This document shows positions 2,735 to 16,119 of a DNA stretch of 22,547 nt, one piece after another. The position numbers were made by a program, and so were the translations under genes. Positions within the stretch are counted from its first letter, which is position 1, and each line of letters opens with the position of its first letter. The DNA lies in the IMG/VR virus record IMGVR_UViG_3300021375_000175, positions 1 through 22,547 of that record, one strand, 5' to 3'. The notes beneath the pieces were generated by a model. The model made no database searches and was not told where the DNA came from. It saw nothing but the letters and a program-made list of their open reading frames with translations. The DNA comes from a virus.

Positions 2735-3355
2735 TTAATTATATCTTATGGTTAGACCTAACTTAGTTGAGCATTTCATTGCACTTGTACAATGTATTTT
2801 CTTTGAATCAAATTGTATTATAGAGCCTGGTAAAAATTCATATGCTTTTCCTGATAACCCAAACCAATGTTTCTCCGGATAATGATATAAAAAATTATTA
2901 TAAAGTTCTTTTTCTATAGGATTATTAGTTAGTCCTTTTACTTCGTTAAAATCACAGGGTCTACCTTTAACTCCTGTATTAACTTTAAATTTTACGTTTT
3001 CTCTAAATGTCCAGGTTACACTAGGCTCTTCAAAGTATTGATCAAATACTATTAGACTTGGATTTGGTCCACCTTCTACTTCTAAAGGTACAACCAAATT
3101 TTGTATTTCATCATTTCTAAAATCGGTATGAGGATAGTAAGGAACCTTATGCTTATAAAAATGGCATGTTTTAATTTTATCTATTTCTATAACAGAATGA
3201 CTTTCAAGCAAATCTAATACAGCATCTGTACCAGGTGCTTTCTTCATAGATTTAGTATCATATTCTTTACTATTATTATATATTTCTATAAGAGAATTTA
3301 ATAAATCAGAACTTACCACATTATTATAGTATACATCTTTTATAATATTGTCCAT
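2735..3355 (-). CDS. 2-oxoglutarate/Fe(II)-dependent oxygenase
   Basis: A 206-aa protein with the double-stranded beta-helix iron site of this superfamily: HTD at 76-78 (His76, Asp78), distal His188 in PGSIIQFDSKKIHCTSA, and Arg204 (LTIRYN) for 2-oxoglutarate. These enzymes hydroxylate amino-acid side chains, nucleobases or small molecules using O2 and 2OG; the substrate cannot be told. Phages of this type often carry such genes. The ATG overlaps the stop of the SGNH gene as TAATG, and GGAG lies 6 bases upstream, so it is the last gene of the ferredoxin-TM-SGNH-oxygenase operon. The operon context fits modification of a glycan, lipid or virion protein. Confidence 0.82.
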   Translation of the reverse strand: MDNIIKDVYYNNVVSSDLLNSLIEIYNNSKEYDTKSMKKAPGTDAVLDLLESHSVIEIDKIKTCHFYKHKVPYYPHTDFRNDEIQNLVVPLEVEGGPNPSLIVFDQYFEEPSVTWTFRENVKFKVNTGVKGRPCDFNEVKGLTNNPIEKELYNNFLYHYPEKHWFGLSGKAYEFLPGSIIQFDSKKIHCTSAMKCSTKLGLTIRYN

Positions 3356-4041
3356 TATATTATATCTCCGTACTCTGAATTAAATTTATTTTTTATTTCT
3401 ATATGTAGATCTTCACTTAAATGATTTTTACTGTAGTCAGGGTGAGAAGGAAGACTCTGAGTAATATTAAATATATTGGTATCAATTTTAAAATTATCTA
3501 TTGTAGTAGGATCGTTAGGCGTTGTTGCTAGTACAAGTGGAATATTTGCAATTTTACATTTTAAAATTAATGTTTCAACAGCAAATAGATTTGCTCTTGC
3601 TAAAAAGGGAATAGATATATTTTTATACAAATTTGTTGTTTCTTTATTCCAAGAATTCATATTACTATATTCCTCTGAAAATCCAGTTAAAAGAGCAAAC
3701 CCATTATAACCGTTTTCTCTAATATTTTTACTTAGCAACTGTTCAAAAGTATTTTTTTCTGAATCATCTAAAAATTTTTCAATTCGTTTTAAAAAAGCAG
3801 ACGTTTTACTATCACTAGATACTCCTGCTCGTAACCAGTTCGTCATACAATAAATGATAAGATCATATTGTTGCCATTCCTTCGTAAATATTTCATTTAC
3901 TACTGACACATGGTTTGCACCGCCTATCCCAAGATTAGTTACCTGATGTCCCTTATCTTTGCACCATTTATTTGCCCAATGTCCTGCATCAGGATCTAAC
4001 CTTGCAAAACTATCACCTGCTACTAAAACTTCTTTAGGCAT
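3355..4041 (-). CDS. SGNH/GDSL-type hydrolase
   Basis: A 228-aa protein with the SGNH blocks: block I VAGDSFA (Ser11), block II GIGGANH (about 38-44), block III MTNW (Asn68), and a C-terminal NHLS (His207) in place of the usual block V His. This fold covers esterases, acyl-transferases and acetyl-glycan deacetylases. There is no signal peptide, so it acts in the cytoplasm. Its start overlaps the stop of the 60-aa membrane gene (TAATG), and its stop overlaps the oxygenase start (TAATG). A second SGNH-like protein is encoded at 11329-12216 and is only distantly similar. Likely job: deacylation or acylation of a sugar, lipid or protein; substrate unknown. Confidence 0.75.
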   Translation of the reverse strand: MPKEVLVAGDSFARLDPDAGHWANKWCKDKGHQVTNLGIGGANHVSVVNEIFTKEWQQYDLIIYCMTNWLRAGVSSDSKTSAFLKRIEKFLDDSEKNTFEQLLSKNIRENGYNGFALLTGFSEEYSNMNSWNKETTNLYKNISIPFLARANLFAVETLILKCKIANIPLVLATTPNDPTTIDNFKIDTNIFNITQSLPSHPDYSKNHLSEDLHIEIKNKFNSEYGDII

Positions 4042-4223
4042 TAAACTATATGCTGTTCTCTGCTTTTTTCTGCTGTATAAATTTTACCTGTTTTTCTACC
4101 GTAATACATACTTCTACTAATTCCTTTAGTACCGCCTTCACTATTAATCATACTAAACATCATAGAAAACAGACCTATTAATGCAGGAACTACTATTGCT
4201 ACTAAAATTACACCATCAATCAT
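4041..4223 (-). CDS. 60-aa single-pass membrane protein
   Basis: ATG at 4223 with GAGG about 10 bases upstream; it overlaps the end of the ferredoxin gene by 8 bases (ATGATTGA). Residues about 4-27 are one hydrophobic helix ([18 protein letters not shown]), followed by a short basic tail ([18 protein letters not shown]). The tail is probably cytoplasmic by the positive-inside rule. It is tightly nested between ferredoxin and SGNH genes. No family recognised; it may anchor a neighbour to the membrane. Confidence 0.75.
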
Positions 4224-4539
4224 TCTTTGCTACCTCTATTGCCTCTTCTAATGAGTAAGGACTTTCATGTGCCATAGGTTCTTTTGTTTCTGCTATGTTG
4301 GGCCACACCTGACTCATTGCATCATTTATTTCTATAAATGGTATTTGTTCTGGTGGTAGTTCATCGTCACTCCAAATGGCTTCTACTGGACATTCTGGCT
4401 CACATAAGGCACAGTCAATACACTCATCTGGATTAATTACCAGCATATTTGGTCCCTCATAGAAACAATCTACAGGGCAAACCTCTACGCATTTTGTGTC
4501 TTTACATCCGACACATGGACTACCTACTACAAAACTCAT
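4216..4539 (-). CDS. fdxA: 7Fe ferredoxin ([3Fe-4S][4Fe-4S])
   Basis: A 107-aa protein with all nine Cys of the Azotobacter-type seven-iron ferredoxin at the expected spacing: Cys9, 12, 17, 21, 25, 40, 43, 46, 50. By family knowledge Cys9/17/50 bind the 3Fe cluster, Cys21/40/43/46 the 4Fe cluster, and Cys12 and Cys25 are free. The typical SDDELPP stretch follows the clusters, and the length is normal. It is a one-electron carrier of the cytoplasm. It has no Shine-Dalgarno before ATG 4539 and two promoters upstream, a sigma70 type and a late box. It heads the operon with SGNH hydrolase and 2OG oxygenase and could feed electrons to those enzymes, ribonucleotide reductase, the radical SAM enzyme or host pathways; the partner is unknown. 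Confidence 0.93.
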
Positions 4540-5830: not shown

Positions 5831-6862
5831 TTAAAATTCTATGTCCCAATGCTCAATAAGAGTCATATCATGTTCTCTAAAATATTCATCTAAATCTTCC
5901 AGTAGGTCTGTAATTATTTGTTTGCCTTCTATTATTTTGAACTGAATGAACTTTTGCACACTCCAATCCGGTATTATTCCATATGTATTTTTATAAAAGT
6001 TATAGTTTATTTCCATACACTTAGATCTATAAGTGTTATTAAAATAATCATACTCTCCTGTTATACTTGCAAAATGATATTTTATCATTTCAAAACCAGT
6101 TAAAGACATTAATACAGGTTCAAGTTTTTCCCCTATTATACTATTATAAAAAAGTTCTTTACCATAATTACCTTGCGTACGACTATTTGAGGAACTCATT
6201 ATTTTATGCTCTTTAGAGAATACTACACCTTGTTCAATCGTCTTATATATAATTTCAGGAGAAGAATAAAAAATGTCCTTACAAATTTTTATATTATTTT
6301 GTTTGCTGAAATTTAAATACGGAACTATATTATTAATAAAGTACGATGTATCCTGACCTAAATAACTTGTTATCTTCTCGGTATCCTCATTCCAAGAAAA
6401 ATAAGGAAAATCTCCTCCCATTATAATACTTCTATCTTCAAAATTAAGTTGTTCTAAAAAGTAAAAATGGAAAGCAAGTTGAGGACTTGAAGTTTTATAT
6501 TTAAGGGCATAGTCTAAATGAAGTTCGTTATCTAAAAATTGTTTAAAATCTAATTGGATAACTTCGTGTTCTATATTATGTTTCTTACAAAAATTTCTAG
6601 CCATGCTTACATCAGGTGCATTTACTAAATTAAGACCCCACATAGATTCATAAGTTACTGCTGTAAACTTTATACCTGCCTGCTTTAATAAAAGACATGC
6701 GAATTGACTATCATAACCTCCACTTAAACATACTAAAGGATTTTCGTACTCTGATATTTTTTCTATACATAGAGTAATAAGATCTGTGTCTGTTTTTCTA
6801 ATTTTAAGAGTAAACTGTAACTCATCTAGATTAAGTAGTAGTCCTCCTGTATTATATATCAT
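5831..6862 (-). CDS. PP-loop ATP pyrophosphatase, asparagine-synthase-like
   Basis: A 343-aa protein with the PP-loop signature CLSGGYDSQFA (Ser47-Ser52 core) and the adjacent pattern of the adenine nucleotide alpha-hydrolase fold; SIIMGGDFPY (145-154) sits where asparagine synthetases have their second ATP-site motif. Such enzymes adenylate a carbonyl or carboxyl and transfer nitrogen or sulphur to it. The glutaminase domain of true asparagine synthetases is missing, so the nitrogen source would be free ammonia, another subunit or an amine substrate. ATG 6862 has AAGGA 8 bases upstream. It is divergent from the subtilase gene, 90 bases away, and no clear late box faces it. It could be a tRNA, small-molecule or peptide-modifying enzyme; substrate unknown. 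Confidence 0.8.
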   Translation of the reverse strand: MIYNTGGLLLNLDELQFTLKIRKTDTDLITLCIEKISEYENPLVCLSGGYDSQFACLLLKQAGIKFTAVTYESMWGLNLVNAPDVSMARNFCKKHNIEHEVIQLDFKQFLDNELHLDYALKYKTSSPQLAFHFYFLEQLNFEDRSIIMGGDFPYFSWNEDTEKITSYLGQDTSYFINNIVPYLNFSKQNNIKICKDIFYSSPEIIYKTIEQGVVFSKEHKIMSSSNSRTQGNYGKELFYNSIIGEKLEPVLMSLTGFEMIKYHFASITGEYDYFNNTYRSKCMEINYNFYKNTYGIIPDWSVQKFIQFKIIEGKQIITDLLEDLDEYFREHDMTLIEHWDIEF

Positions 6863-6952: not shown

Positions 6953-8584
6953 ATGGCAAGTTATATAGTAGAAATGGACGGAACAGTTCATGCAGATTCG
7001 ACGGCGGCTCAAACCGCAATTACAAATGCAGGTGGTTCTATTACCACTGCTTTTGATCTTAATATGACATTTGAAATAGATTGTACTGCTGAACAATTAG
7101 CGGCAATGACAGGAGTTAAATATTCCTCACTATCAGATGCAAATTCAGGATTAGAAGTTTCTGCATTAGATGTTACACATTTTAAATATGTTGATAACAG
7201 ATTCCATAGGCAAGATCCTGATAACGGAAATGCGGCAATTGAACACGGAGAATTTGTTCACTATTACAAAGGTAATGGAAAAACAGTTTATCTTTTAGAC
7301 TCTGGTATGAATGCAAATCATGTGGAATTTGCAAATGCTACTATTACTAACTTATGGACAGCATTCGACACTAATCCAAATGGTGATGCTTATGATAGTG
7401 ATTATGAGGATAATGTAGGACATGGTACAGCAGTAGGTTCTCTTATTGTTGGCGAAAATATAGGTACGGCTCCAGACGCAACCTTAATGAATGTTAAATT
7501 GTATGATCAAGCAGTAGGAACAACTACAATAGGTAATGTTGTTACAGCATTTAGTAAAGTACTTGCACACCATAATGCTAACGACACTTCAGATGTAAAA
7601 GTATTATGTGCTCCATGGATTACAACACAAAACGATCTAATAGATTCCAAGGTTATGGAATTAAATAGTGCTAATGTTGTAGTTGTTGCGGCGGCAGGTA
7701 ACAAAAACGATGATGTAAATCTCTATTCCCCAGCAGGTATAGAAGAAATTATTACTGTTGGTTCTCATGATAGAAACTGGGCACTTTCCGAATTTACAAA
7801 TACTGCATGGGACGGTGGAAGTGCAAACGTATCATTACCAAACTATGGTGCACCAGTTGATATATTAACAATTGGTGAAGATGTATGTATGGCAACATCC
7901 TTATCTAATACAAGTTATGTATTAGGTACTGGAACCAGTCTTTCAGCAGGACTAGTTGCAGGTGGTGCCGCGGCATTTATTGAAAAACATAATAGTAAAA
8001 ATTCAAACGAAATTAAAGATATCCTAGTTGCAGAAGGTAAGTTAAGAGCAAGAACAACATTTGCTATATCAGATACACTTGCTAACACCCATGTATTCCA
8101 TTCCAATGTAGGTGTACAATATGCGGCTTTACAGTTAGATTCTGCAGGCCCTAATGCTTCAGTACAACTATTCACAACACCTTCAAGTCTTGTTGGTAAG
8201 GTTCAAAGAGGACAAAGTATAACAATTGACTTAGGTTTAAATGCCTTAGCATCAAATGTTGAAGTATTATCATTTAGTCCCTTATCACCTTGGATGACGT
8301 TCAACACAGGAACAGGAGTATTAGTTGCTGATACAACCGGATTGGCGGCTGATCGAGCACCTGGATTCTATGTATTTGGTGTTAAAGGTAAAATAGGTGA
8401 GTTATTCTCAGTAGAAGAGTTTACAGTAGGTGTATATGAAACTAATGAGTCAGAATTAGAAGGTAGTGCAAACAGTTATTACTATGATACTGATAACTCA
8501 GAGTATGATTTAAATACAGCAATTAACTATGAACTTTCACCACAATATAATTTTGTAGTAGAGGTTATTGGTACTAAAAAATAA
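6953..8584 (+). CDS. Subtilisin-like serine protease (S8) with Ig-like C-terminal region
   Basis: A 543-aa protein; ATG 6953 follows GGAG at 10 bases. Residues 1-65 resemble an I9 propeptide/inhibitor domain (MASYIVEMDGTVHADST). The catalytic triad is complete: Asp116 in LLDSG, His158 in VGHGTAVGS, Ser329 in GTGTSLSAG, with oxyanion Asn250 in VVVAAAGN. Residues about 385-490 look like a putative Ig (He_PIG-type) domain, with LSPWMTFNTGTGVLVADT followed by GFYVFGVKG. The C-terminus is acidic and Tyr-rich. There is no signal peptide, so it is cytoplasmic or virion-bound. A late box drives it on the opposite strand to its neighbours. It may process virion proteins or ride in the virion as a host-surface protease; role is inference. 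Confidence 0.92.
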   Translation: MASYIVEMDGTVHADSTAAQTAITNAGGSITTAFDLNMTFEIDCTAEQLAAMTGVKYSSLSDANSGLEVSALDVTHFKYVDNRFHRQDPDNGNAAIEHGEFVHYYKGNGKTVYLLDSGMNANHVEFANATITNLWTAFDTNPNGDAYDSDYEDNVGHGTAVGSLIVGENIGTAPDATLMNVKLYDQAVGTTTIGNVVTAFSKVLAHHNANDTSDVKVLCAPWITTQNDLIDSKVMELNSANVVVVAAAGNKNDDVNLYSPAGIEEIITVGSHDRNWALSEFTNTAWDGGSANVSLPNYGAPVDILTIGEDVCMATSLSNTSYVLGTGTSLSAGLVAGGAAAFIEKHNSKNSNEIKDILVAEGKLRARTTFAISDTLANTHVFHSNVGVQYAALQLDSAGPNASVQLFTTPSSLVGKVQRGQSITIDLGLNALASNVEVLSFSPLSPWMTFNTGTGVLVADTTGLAADRAPGFYVFGVKGKIGELFSVEEFTVGVYETNESELEGSANSYYYDTDNSEYDLNTAINYELSPQYNFVVEVIGTKK

Positions 8585-8588
8585 GTAA

Positions 8589-9689
8589 TTGATTGATACT
8601 TTACACATAGATTTAACATCTTATTCAAAGACTTTTAATAGTTTATCTCCCCAAGGGCAGTGGTTCTGTAGTCGTATAGGTAAACGAAAGTATCCTATAC
8701 AAGAAATAAATGTAGATTTATTAATAGAATTCATATCCAAAAACAATCCTAAAAAAGTATTCTGTAACAGTTTCTACGGAGACTCATTAGAATATTCTAG
8801 GATAGTGGAATTATCCAAATATTGTAAAGAACTAGAAATAGAATTTATGGTATTTACATCAGGAAGTAACTTAGACAAAAACATTGTAGATCAATTATTA
8901 GAACACAATACAACATTTTATTTATTTTCTTATGGTGTAGAAGATAATGCAAATAAAATTGTCTTAAATGTTGATTGGATAGACATATATAATTTTTTAA
9001 AACAAGCAAAAAATAAATGTATTATAGAATTTTCCTCTTATAAACATAATGTAAACGACATTTATAAAATGTTGGAAATTTGTAAAGAATATGGTAATAG
9101 TATAAAAATAATAAAAGGCAATAACTTTAAAGAAAATGTTACCAATATTTTTAATGCTCAAGGTAAATGGTTATATGACGTATTACCTATACAAGAGGAT
9201 TTACCTTTTGAAGATGAATTTTTGCATGACGTAACAGAAGCACTACAAGAATATAAAGATATAAAAATAGAATCTAAAAAGTTATTTAGAAGTACAGAAG
9301 GTTACATGAATACAAGATACTTCAGAAAAACATACAGAGGAGAAAATATTTTTGATGCTGGGATTCCAGACTTACGTGATGTATATCCTTTGCAACTTTA
9401 TACCAGTGATGAAGTGTTTATAAATTCTACTGGACATATTTTTTGTAATCGAGAATCTTATGATATTTTTAATAACTGTTTAGCAAACGACTGGCACTTA
9501 AAATTTATGTCTCATATTTCTAGTAATGAAAGTAAATATAGGCAAAGTGGTTTACATAGATTATATATAGAAGAGTCAGAATTTGTTAAAAATGTATTAT
9601 CTAAATATATATTTTACTTTAAAAAGAAATTACAAGAGTGTTCTTTAGAGGAAAATATACAAGATTTCTACTGGTCTAAATCGTCTTAG
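8589..9689 (+). CDS. Radical-SAM-like protein lacking the CxxxCxxC cluster motif
   Basis: A 366-aa frame starting at TTG 8589, 4 bases after the subtilase stop; no ATG lies near, so the TTG start with weak ribosome site implies coupling. The fold pattern resembles a radical SAM barrel: VFCNSFYGDSLEYSRIVEL (57-75) sits where active enzymes have the GGE strand, followed by EFMVFTSGSNL like the TNG strand, and the C-terminal FINSTGHIFCNRESYD resembles a twitch/SPASM segment. The N-terminal region has no CxxxCxxC, so it should not hold the catalytic 4Fe cluster. It overlaps the true radical SAM gene tail to tail by 14 bases. It may be an inactive partner or substrate-binding subunit. The family call is tentative. 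Confidence 0.6.
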   Translation: MIDTLHIDLTSYSKTFNSLSPQGQWFCSRIGKRKYPIQEINVDLLIEFISKNNPKKVFCNSFYGDSLEYSRIVELSKYCKELEIEFMVFTSGSNLDKNIVDQLLEHNTTFYLFSYGVEDNANKIVLNVDWIDIYNFLKQAKNKCIIEFSSYKHNVNDIYKMLEICKEYGNSIKIIKGNNFKENVTNIFNAQGKWLYDVLPIQEDLPFEDEFLHDVTEALQEYKDIKIESKKLFRSTEGYMNTRYFRKTYRGENIFDAGIPDLRDVYPLQLYTSDEVFINSTGHIFCNRESYDIFNNCLANDWHLKFMSHISSNESKYRQSGLHRLYIEESEFVKNVLSKYIFYFKKKLQECSLEENIQDFYWSKSS

Positions 9690-10695
9690 TAATAGATATA
9701 TCAGAAATATTATTACAATATTGATAAGGACAAATCACTTTACTAGCAGGTAAACTCCAATCACTATCTGCAACATTACCAAAATTTACAGCACCACACC
9801 AACTACTATACATATCTCCACTAGCATCTATATTTAAACTTTCAAATCCAAGATGACATTTCATATCCTTAAATGAATTAAGTCCTTCATTTATAATTTG
9901 GTGACTCTGTACATACTTTGTAGTTCCGTCTTCATATAAAAATTCAGTCATCCAGGAAGTGTCTGGAACATGCTCTTTAGGTTCCTTATCTTCAATATGA
10001 TCAATATGCTCTACAGGCATTGGTTTTATTCCAGGCCGTTGTAATACTTCTAATTCCTTATCTGTGTACTGCCAATATGTTTCTTGCTTACTCTGATGCC
10101 CTAAGAGCTTCTTATACATTGTTTTTACACATATACTTACATTATCATATGTATTACGATTAGAATCTAAAAATAAATTTCTTAGTTCTTCTACAAAATC
10201 ACCTAAATCTTGAACTTGTCCACCTATTCCTGCTATATTAATATCTATAGTGACATCTTCTTTAATTTCATTTATAACGTCTATAATATGTTGTTTATCT
10301 TGTGTTTGAGGATGAAATGTTAATACTACTCCGTCCATATAATACTTTGCTTTACTCCACCAATTAACTGTTCTACTACCGTTTGTAAATACAACATTGT
10401 GTGTATTAAATTCATCTATCTTTCTAATAATATCCTCAAACCCTGGTATTACTGTAACTTCTCCACCTATTAATTCAAAGTCCACACGTTTATCCAAACT
10501 GTTATAATGCTTACACAGACGCTCTATGGCCGTTAAATAGGACTCTAAGGGTAACCACGGCTTAGAACCGTCGTGTAGTATTGGAGGACAATATTCGCAA
10601 TTATAATTACATGAGTTACCCATATTCCATTGGATTCTTATATTATCCATTGGACCTCGAGCATGTGGGCCTCGTACTGAAACGAGTTTAGACAT
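9676..10695 (-). CDS. Radical SAM enzyme with SPASM/twitch-type C-terminus
   Basis: A 339-aa protein if begun at ATG 10695, which overlaps the PAAR stop as TAATG; a longer frame adds 17 residues inside the PAAR gene and is unlikely. Cys29, Cys33 and Cys36 in NSCNYNCEYCPP bind the catalytic 4Fe cluster; IGGEVT (77-82) is the SAM-binding GGE motif; FTNGSR (103-108) is the next strand. Cys280, Cys300, Cys322 and Cys327, with Gly293, give a twitch/SPASM-like site for an auxiliary cluster. Family members use a 5'-deoxyadenosyl radical to modify peptides, proteins or carbohydrates. Reducing power could come from the ferredoxin at 4216-4539. The link to PAAR suggests a virion-protein substrate, but that is inference. 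Confidence 0.87.
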   Translation of the reverse strand: MSKLVSVRGPHARGPMDNIRIQWNMGNSCNYNCEYCPPILHDGSKPWLPLESYLTAIERLCKHYNSLDKRVDFELIGGEVTVIPGFEDIIRKIDEFNTHNVVFTNGSRTVNWWSKAKYYMDGVVLTFHPQTQDKQHIIDVINEIKEDVTIDINIAGIGGQVQDLGDFVEELRNLFLDSNRNTYDNVSICVKTMYKKLLGHQSKQETYWQYTDKELEVLQRPGIKPMPVEHIDHIEDKEPKEHVPDTSWMTEFLYEDGTTKYVQSHQIINEGLNSFKDMKCHLGFESLNIDASGDMYSSWCGAVNFGNVADSDWSLPASKVICPYQYCNNISDISITKTI

Positions 10696-10970
10696 TACAG
10701 ACCTGTAATGACGGTGAATGATCCTGGTGCTAATGTATGTCCACAACTAACAACACCAGGTGCTATGGCAACAAATTTACCTTCTGCCATTACTGTGCCA
10801 CTGCCAGTAGCAATAAGACTACTACCTGTTGTATGTGGTGCTTCACCGTGTGTTGCTATTCCATCACCTATTACTGATATAGGCACACCTTCAACAAAGA
10901 CTGTTGGTGCTCCAGGGCCGATAATTAATCCGCCTCCCGCCATATCAATACCTACTCTACAAGTTGTCAT
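10695..10970 (-). CDS. PAAR-domain spike-tip protein
   Basis: A 91-aa protein of the PAAR family (T4 gp5.4-like), with the Gly/Pro-rich repeats that fold into a sharp cone on the tail spike: GPGAPTVFVEGVPISVIGDG and GTVMAEGKFVAIAPGVVS. His46 (PHTTG) and Cys76/His78 (SCGHTL) could be part of the metal site at the tip. No Shine-Dalgarno lies before ATG 10970; a CATAAATA box ends 5 bases upstream, as at the ferredoxin gene, so the mRNA would be leaderless. Its stop is joined to the radical SAM gene by TAATG. Confidence 0.92.
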   Translation of the reverse strand: MTTCRVGIDMAGGGLIIGPGAPTVFVEGVPISVIGDGIATHGEAPHTTGSSLIATGSGTVMAEGKFVAIAPGVVSCGHTLAPGSFTVITGL

Positions 10971-10975
10971 ACTAT

Positions 10976-10983
10976 TATTTATG
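10976..10983 (-). promoter_or_regulatory. T4-like late promoter box (CATAAATA) abutting PAAR start
   Basis: CATAAATAATAG on the minus strand, 5 bases from the ATG at 10970. It overlaps the stop codon of the Sm-like gene. Confidence 0.5.
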
Positions 10984-11293
10984 CAGTTTCTACTATTTCA
11001 GCATCAACTTCTTTAGCATTGGCTACTAAATTAAGATAGTCTTCTTCAGGCTTTTGCAATGTAGGGCAAATAGTTAGAACTTTATTAAGGGAAAATACAA
11101 CTTCACTTGAATTTCCTGTATACTGATAAGGTACTGCCGCAACTTCTCCGTCAGTAATTACTATTGTCATAGGATATTCACATGTAACGTTTTTATCTTT
11201 TGCAACATAGCCTATCATCCTTGTGATAAGTTCAACTCCGGATGTTAGTTTTATTGTTACTGTTTTGCCAATAAGGCTTTTGATATCATACAT
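10979..11293 (-). CDS. Sm/LSm-like small protein
   Basis: A 104-aa protein; ATG 11293 with an AGAG element about 9 bases upstream and a late box 26 bases upstream. Residues 1-75 have the Sm fold pattern: helix then strands (SLIGKTVTIKLTSGVELITR, then MIGYVAKDKNVTCEYPMTIV), a bent five-stranded sheet as in Sm/Hfq proteins; the C-terminus is a charged helix. I recall a crystal structure of an Sm-like protein of putative cyanophage origin from marine metagenome data, which may be this family (recollection, not checked). It may bind RNA or, given the late box and PAAR neighbour, serve in virion assembly. Confidence 0.65.
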   Translation of the reverse strand: MYDIKSLIGKTVTIKLTSGVELITRMIGYVAKDKNVTCEYPMTIVITDGEVAAVPYQYTGNSSEVVFSLNKVLTICPTLQKPEEDYLNLVANAKEVDAEIVETA

Positions 11294-11328: not shown

Positions 11329-12216
11329 CTAGTTATCTAATAGTTCTTGAATTTTAGGTATTGCAAATTCCGTTGACCATTCTTGCTGTGCCTGTGGACT
11401 AAGATGATGTGTATAATTAGTACCGGGTTCTTCTTGTAATCCTTGTTCTTGCATACGTCTATGATCACCTTGTAATGCAAAGGAAATACCTGGATCTAGT
11501 AAATTCTCTTCTGGTACGAAATCCCACAAATAACCATCTATAGTTAATGTAGGTCGATTCTCAGGATCACTATTTGCTAAATTTGTTTGTGTTTGTTTAA
11601 ATGTAAATGTATTTGGGCAAAATAAAAACTTTACGTTGTTCTGTTGCATCTGGTGTACAGCACTTTGCATCATGTATATTTGCTTATGTGCTTCTAAATC
11701 ATGATCATACATATTAAGATACCATTTCCTAAATGCATAAAATTGAGATTCTGTAAAGTATTGATCTAACATCCACCAGTTATAACATGCTTCTTCATAT
11801 GTACAAGATAAATTATTTTCTAAAATACTTACAAGACTTTGGCTAGTAATTACCGGTGTGTCTTTAGGATATTCAGGATGTTGCTTTCTTGTAAAGTTAC
11901 CCTCAAGGGAACCATCACTTCCTTTTGTTTCTACATCATAGGATAATTGTGATAATCCTTTTTGTATGTCATACTCTTTTCCTGTATTATTCCAACAAAT
12001 TCTACAGGCTGTAGTCCAATTTACAATTATAAAATCTGCTTTTAGATGTTTTATAGCATAGTCAATTTGCAATCTTATACCAAAATTATCACAAGCAGGT
12101 CTGGCAATATTTTGATAATCCCAACCAAAATGTTTGGAAATGTAATACCCGTATTCTGTATCTAAGTTATTAGGGTCTCTTGAACTCCAACTACACCCAC
12201 ATACAACTAGTTTCAT
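11329..12216 (-). CDS. SGNH-like hydrolase with GCSW block I
   Basis: A 295-aa protein of the SGNH-like type seen in marine phages: block I VCGCSWSSRD (Ser9), a conserved NIARPACDNFGIRLQIDYAI region (block II), FIIVNWTTACR (block III position), and C-terminal THHLSPQAQQEW (His270/271). Compared with the usual GDS, Asp is replaced by Cys, yet the Ser is kept. It shares the NHLS/HHLS end with the protein at 3355-4041 but little else. Its ATG overlaps the nrdB stop as TAATG, so it is made with the ribonucleotide reductase. The substrate is unknown; the link to nrdAB may only be shared timing. Confidence 0.7.
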   Translation of the reverse strand: MKLVVCGCSWSSRDPNNLDTEYGYYISKHFGWDYQNIARPACDNFGIRLQIDYAIKHLKADFIIVNWTTACRICWNNTGKEYDIQKGLSQLSYDVETKGSDGSLEGNFTRKQHPEYPKDTPVITSQSLVSILENNLSCTYEEACYNWWMLDQYFTESQFYAFRKWYLNMYDHDLEAHKQIYMMQSAVHQMQQNNVKFLFCPNTFTFKQTQTNLANSDPENRPTLTIDGYLWDFVPEENLLDPGISFALQGDHRRMQEQGLQEEPGTNYTHHLSPQAQQEWSTEFAIPKIQELLDN

Positions 12217-15656: not shown

Positions 15657-15684
15657 ATTGTAACATAAAACATTATAAAATCAA
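15657..15684 (-). promoter_or_regulatory. Possible sigma70-type promoter upstream of nrdA
   Basis: TTGATT (15679-15684) and TACAAT (15657-15662) with 16 bases between, on the minus strand; matches 4/6 and 5/6 to consensus. The -35 overlaps the end of the 143-aa gene. Early transcription of nrdA would suit its role, but AT-rich DNA gives such matches by chance. Confidence 0.35.
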
Positions 15685-16112
15685 GATATAATTTGTTCTT
15701 TTTGTATATTATGTATTTGGAATACTGTAGCATTCTCTTGGACAAAGTCCCAAGTATCTACTTTATTAGGCAAAAAATTATAAACTAAATTATTATGTAA
15801 TATTACTAATCCAGAATTGCCTGTTATGTTATTACTTATCACTGGATAAATTATTTCATCATTATTTAAGAAACCTTTATAAACCAATGTAGAAGCCAAT
15901 ACTAACGTGATTCCACTTTGGCAAAAATATCCTTCATTTACAATTTCGAATGGAGTTGGCCAACTACTAGGAGTATAATAATCTAAGTATCTTGATTTGA
16001 CATCTATACTAGAGAAATCCTCCAAGACTTCCTCAATGTTAGAGTGATTTTTATTTCTTAAATCTCTCCAAGTCGACAGTCTTTGCTCCGGTGTTTGTAT
16101 ATTGACAAACAT
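15681..16112 (-). CDS. 143-aa protein downstream of the fibre gene, function unknown
   Basis: I take ATG 16112 as the start (a TTG directly before it is also possible); the gap to the stop of the 900-aa gene is 7 bases. The product starts MFVNIQTPEQRLSTWRDLRN. The middle has strand-like hydrophobic segments (SGITLVLASTLVYKGFL, NSGLVILHNNLVYNFL). There is no signal peptide or membrane helix. Phage genes directly after a fibre gene often encode fibre chaperones or adaptors, so that is one candidate role, unsupported by motif. Confidence 0.75.
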   Translation of the reverse strand: MFVNIQTPEQRLSTWRDLRNKNHSNIEEVLEDFSSIDVKSRYLDYYTPSSWPTPFEIVNEGYFCQSGITLVLASTLVYKGFLNNDEIIYPVISNNITGNSGLVILHNNLVYNFLPNKVDTWDFVQENATVFQIHNIQKEQIIS

Positions 16113-16119
16113 CAATTAA

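Follow-up and report, generated by a model that had tools for sequence, protein, structure and literature searches.

A predicted radical-SAM-fold pseudoenzyme in a conserved gene cassette of uncultured aquatic phages

The window analysed here, the whole 22,547-nucleotide stretch of IMG/VR record IMGVR_UViG_3300021375_000175, covers part of the genome of an uncultured aquatic phage and carries nrdA, nrdB, a tail fibre gene and a PAAR gene. It includes a gene cassette: a PP-loop ATPase with an SGGxDS motif (5831-6862, minus strand); divergent from it, a subtilase of family S8 (6953-8584, plus strand), whose N-terminus is I9-like by our own reading and whose catalytic residues are D116, H157 and S329; a pseudo-radical-SAM protein (pseudo-rSAM) of 366 residues, with a TTG start and a predicted barrel of the radical SAM type (8589-9689, plus strand); an intact radical SAM (rSAM) enzyme with four C-terminal cysteines and a predicted twitch-like auxiliary cluster (9676-10692, minus strand); and, immediately upstream of the latter on the same strand, a PAAR spike-tip protein (10695-10970, minus strand). 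The 3' ends of the rSAM and pseudo-rSAM genes overlap by 14 nt. A small conserved protein of 104 residues with no assigned function (10979-11293, minus strand) sits between the nrdB side and PAAR. A variable accessory block surrounds the cassette (1847-2668, 2735-3355, 3355-4041, 4216-4539 and 11329-12216) and encodes a 2OG-oxygenase-like protein, two SGNH-hydrolase-like proteins and a ferredoxin by our own reading, and a lipase-like protein identified by a PHROG match. The 144-residue protein encoded beside nrdA (15681-16115) has relatives among isolates only in the jumbo phages Phosso and Atu_ph07, and the nearest relatives of the window nrdB are likewise found in jumbo phages. At the C-terminus of the subtilase (8130-8570), the motif SELE...YYYDxD...YD is kept in almost every cassette subtilase, including those of loci that lack the rSAM gene. 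A T4-late-promoter-like sequence, TATAAATA, was considered and found not to be enriched.

The rSAM open reading frame extends from 9676 to 10746 on the minus strand, and its conserved N-terminus, MxKLVSVRGPHAR, sets the start at an ATG near 10692; homologues align from this ATG onwards, so translation probably does not begin at the TTG at 10746. The initial annotation had read in this protein the motifs of an active enzyme, and the reading holds across the family: C28-x3-C32-x2-C35, GGE, TNG and the cysteines C279, C299, C321 and C326 are invariant in all 28 aligned sequences, the 27 relatives being 66-79% identical to the window protein. The enzyme thus has the CxxxCxxC and GGE motifs together with a twitch-like C-terminus whose four cysteines are predicted to bind a cluster. 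Its assignment to prokaryotic viperins was rejected, with a score of 36 bits under the NF038283 cut-off of 180 and a partial PADLOC match, as was that to the STM4011 family (42.6 bits, under the NF038073 cut-off of 200). The mean identity of the rSAM enzymes (0.69) is far above that of the pseudo-rSAM, PP-loop, subtilase and PAAR proteins around them (0.32-0.45).

Several lines of analysis indicate that the convergent neighbour is predicted to have the fold of rSAM enzymes, with a partial barrel. The window protein alone matches the Pfam Radical_SAM profile with an E-value of 5e-4 (5e-6 in a search of its own record), and the match begins at profile position 13, past the cluster motif. A search of the PDB with the family profile returned rSAM enzymes only (TYW1, SuiB and BlsE). 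The AlphaFold2 model (pLDDT 83.7, pTM 0.86) was matched by Foldseek to SkfB, SuiB, BlsE and others, and aligned by VIA-align to SuiB, MoaA, BlsE and SkfB with Z-scores of 15-16.6 over 227-235 residues. Structure prediction of the 8589-9689 product, proposed at the outset as the way in which an unrelated fold would come to light, thus gave an rSAM fold, and the rSAM-like layout that had been noticed is borne out by the profile and, over residues 1-363, by the model. Over this span the closest structures are the SPASM/twitch maturases SuiB, SkfB and ChlB, together with MoaA and BlsE (Z 14-16.6). Yet these are catalytic Fe-S enzymes, whereas the phage protein, 11-16% identical to them, lacks the clusters.

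About 190 pseudo-rSAM loci turned up when viral contigs were scanned; many were overlapping stretches of one and the same contig, and we reduced the set to 66 non-redundant full-length relatives. None of the 66 has the CxxxCxxC motif of functional rSAM enzymes anywhere. In the window protein the three cluster positions are S13, N17 and S20, and across the relatives they hold N/S/T/D, N/I/V/S/T/D/Y and S/E/G/L/D/T/Q, in a loop region of constant length with no insertion or deletion. The description of the protein as cysteine-less was too strong, since relatives carry at least two cysteines each, six on average, and what is missing are the cluster cysteines. Other positions are invariant or nearly so: D8, T10, Q22, G23, G31, K32, R33, G64, D65 and N154, and in the second half W194, D197, G282, D301 and W302; at the near-invariant H28 and F30 the window protein has S and I instead. 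Ten pairs could be scored for dN/dS: nine give values of 0.06-0.25, and the tenth, which has hardly diverged, gives 0.35. These low values indicate a protein under selection, which therefore probably has a new, non-radical job. The protein is a radical-SAM-fold pseudoenzyme; this identity is firm, and its mechanism is something that we infer.

Judging by profile comparisons, the pseudo-rSAM appears to descend from an intact viral rSAM subfamily, here named GDP-type, with loss of both the radical and the auxiliary cluster and retention of a modified pocket. The GDP-type signature is 'LTSKCQARCPMC ... GNLGDP ... FKHN'. A GDP-type profile of 85 members aligns with the pseudo-rSAM by hhalign over 271 columns (E 2.3e-17), and a profile match to a single member reaches 3e-10. 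Homology to GDP-type enzymes (for example L207:6001-6978 and L217:7563-8645; PHROG phrog_21308) runs along nearly the whole length, with GD(P), KHN and a C-terminal G-x hairpin in common. The GDP-type enzymes, however, keep CxxxCxxC (105 of 105 members checked) and five C-terminal cysteines, whereas the pseudo-rSAM lacks them and has a new QG..HRFGKR loop. Three of their nine conserved cysteines belong to the radical cluster, one is close to the GDP motif and five are C-terminal. None of the nine has a conserved cysteine at the same position in the pseudo-rSAM; the SPASM/twitch-type set at GDP-type positions 234, 253, 254, 310 and 314 is thus absent. We rejected the possibility that the pseudo-rSAM is a worn duplicate of the facing enzyme: the profile match is 3% to the neighbour, whose profile is shallow, against 97-99% to the GDP-type. 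The view of the two proteins as paralogues is hence not upheld, as they belong to different rSAM subfamilies.

GDP-type enzymes are abundant (585 of the 600 candidate stretches) and occur in the multi-rSAM islands of many aquatic viruses. By our own reading, these islands contain several rSAM types together with methyltransferase-like and SGNH-like genes; one such island also has a PP-loop protein by the same reading, and full-length relatives of the window rSAM occur in these islands. In pelagimyophages, radical SAM cassettes were described in the host-recognition cluster (PMC7029224). One phage contig of 250519 bases (G004, with loci L061 and L141; also L205 and L206) has twelve rSAM matches, one of them the weak match given by the pseudo-rSAM itself, at 164-177 kb and 233-245 kb, with six or seven in a tandem array. 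Among isolates, Agrobacterium phage Atu_ph07 (MF403008.1) has four rSAM genes at 116-123 kb, all annotated as hypothetical, and Sinorhizobium phage Phosso (PV764938.1) has about five at 180-192 kb, in both cases near a giant structural gene. As these phages are isolates, their rSAM islands are amenable to culture tests. The pseudo-rSAM was not found in the two phages, which share the small neighbour gene. Isolated phages gave no relatives of the pseudo-rSAM or the PP-loop protein, and weak, partial matches only for the rSAM and subtilase. Two short-pattern scans of limited scope found no pseudo-rSAM in cellular genomes, a result that does not imply absence.

The order of the cassette, PP-loop (-), subtilase (+), pseudo-rSAM (+), rSAM (-) and PAAR (-), is highly conserved. 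The initial annotation had suggested a search for the pair in viral contigs, and every one of 70 non-redundant rSAM loci that had room for it has a convergent pseudo-rSAM, with an overlap of 4-46 nt; conversely, 70 of the 75 pseudo-rSAMs with room on that side face an rSAM. The subtilase lies directly upstream of the pseudo-rSAM in 61 of 61 loci with room, and the PP-loop ATPase is present in 41 of 41. The subtilase triad and the PP-loop SGGxDS motif are invariant or nearly so (at least 96% of 46 loci), with D116, H157 and S329 of the triad kept in 46 of 46. Across these 46 loci, pairwise identities of the pseudo-rSAM correlate with those of the PP-loop protein at 0.94, the subtilase at 0.92, the rSAM at 0.82 and nrdB at 0.51, and, with nrdB held constant, at 0.92, 0.89 and 0.74 for the first three; the loci share phylogeny, which makes these values indicative only, and fixed synteny among related phages inflates both co-occurrence and distance correlations. 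Mean identities are 0.32 for the pseudo-rSAM, 0.33 for the PP-loop protein, 0.45 for the subtilase and 0.83 for nrdB. The pseudo-rSAM is thus tied more tightly to the subtilase and the PP-loop protein than to the rSAM.

From the fold, the family-wide loss of cluster cysteines, purifying selection and the invariant gene order, we infer, with a probability of roughly 0.4, that the pseudo-rSAM may serve, without a cofactor, as a recognition or scaffold subunit in a phage cassette for protein modification, alongside the PP-loop enzyme, the subtilase and usually the rSAM. The pseudo-rSAM would bind a polypeptide, which could be a phage virion or tail-associated protein or even the subtilase; this target would be activated by the PP-loop enzyme, modified by the rSAM where there is one, and processed by the subtilase. 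This proposal is supported by the intact catalytic residues of the subtilase, PP-loop protein and rSAM, all predicted to be active, and by the peptide-binding maturases SuiB, SkfB and ChlB among the nearest folds. It also has a precedent in the Qhp system, where the rSAM enzyme QhpD and the subtilisin-like protease QhpE, likewise encoded together, mature one protein, QhpC (PMC7876137). The phage cassette differs from Qhp by its additional PP-loop and pseudo-rSAM proteins and by having no visible flavoprotein or ABC transporter, and no counterpart of QhpC was noticed. The subtilase resembles QhpE only in a generic way (38 bits, far under the cut-off of 165), and no QhpD match was obtained. The failure to identify a substrate or precursor peptide of the cassette counts against a recognition or scaffold subunit, and so does the conserved pocket (D8, T10, G31, R33, GD64-65 and N154), which also fits a new catalytic or ligand-binding role. 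A more far-reaching picture is conceivable, if somewhat doubtful: the cassette could form a virus-specific modification system in which an rSAM-derived, cluster-free specificity subunit, or else a non-radical enzyme, acts on a virion protein together with a PP-loop ligase and a protease, the radical step being optional.

The pocket might instead belong to a new catalyst or a ligand carrier, a repurposed barrel in which the loop Q22-G23...HRFGKR replaces the cluster and serves a non-radical reaction or holds a small ligand. Such a role agrees with the conserved pocket almost as well as recognition or scaffolding does, since the most conserved new motif occupies the former site of the cluster loop, and the ancestral pocket still has its GD64-65 and N154. 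HemW, an rSAM-family protein turned to heme binding and transfer as a chaperone, gives a precedent, and the extended cluster motif tabulated for it is carried by only 29% of HemW sequences (PMC10320005). However, HemW is HemN-like, its E. coli representative keeps a cluster, and we found no match or other sequence relation between HemW and the pseudo-rSAM. With no ligand known, and given that pocket conservation does not show catalysis, we consider a catalyst or carrier rather unlikely.

The initial annotation had suggested a possible heterodimer in which the pseudo-rSAM binds the substrate and the facing rSAM does the radical chemistry. The part of this idea that survives is that an active enzyme faces an inactive protein of rSAM fold. 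The overlapping convergent arrangement at every rSAM locus with room speaks for a partnership, and so does the observation that GDP-type enzymes have a second rSAM directly beside them at 55 of 80 loci, which makes two-rSAM teams usual in these viruses. Yet the rSAM is absent from its place in five contigs that retain the pseudo-rSAM (L122, L076, L083, L098 and L110), so that an obligate heterodimer is not supported; in L083, L098 and L110 PAAR is kept and directly faces the pseudo-rSAM. No rSAM was found on the whole records of L076, L083, L098 and L110; these are all fragments, and the gene may therefore lie elsewhere in those genomes. The pseudo-rSAM of an rSAM-less lineage nevertheless has a dN/dS of 0.06-0.07. 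Furthermore, the pseudo-rSAM co-varies less with the rSAM than with the PP-loop protein and subtilase, and pseudo-rSAM and rSAM contrast in mean identity, neither of which suggests a dedicated pair; their genes lie on opposite strands and are therefore not one operon. A heterodimer is possible, but it is unlikely, and less supported than a recognition or scaffold subunit.

The pseudo-rSAM might also serve only the adjacent subtilase, as its chaperone or inhibitor, the rSAM and PP-loop proteins being mere neighbours. Its constant position directly downstream on the same strand and their closely co-varying distances are what such a helper would show, but the PP-loop gene is equally constant and co-varies even more, and nothing about this role calls for an rSAM fold, which makes it a distinctly improbable one. 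That the gene is decaying or an annotation artefact, as the loss of all cluster residues and the weak single-sequence Pfam score might suggest, is already refuted by the full-length reading frames of the 66 relatives, a dN/dS well below 1 and the new invariant residues.

Two further leads were rejected. PAAR and the tail of the subtilase were considered as substrates of the rSAM, and no feature in them separates rSAM-bearing from rSAM-less contigs. A defence system was considered as well, and PADLOC gives no match for the pseudo-rSAM or the PP-loop protein.

Radical SAM pseudoenzymes are rarely described. Our limited search of open-access papers found none for viruses, and no described phage system with a pair such as this one, in agreement with the initial annotation. 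A family that lacks both clusters, is under selection and occupies a fixed cassette is a natural experiment in the repurposing of the rSAM fold, for which the intact viral relatives provide a comparison set and the rSAM-less contigs provide controls. The cassette may also be a sign that aquatic phages modify their tail or virion proteins in a way not yet recognised.
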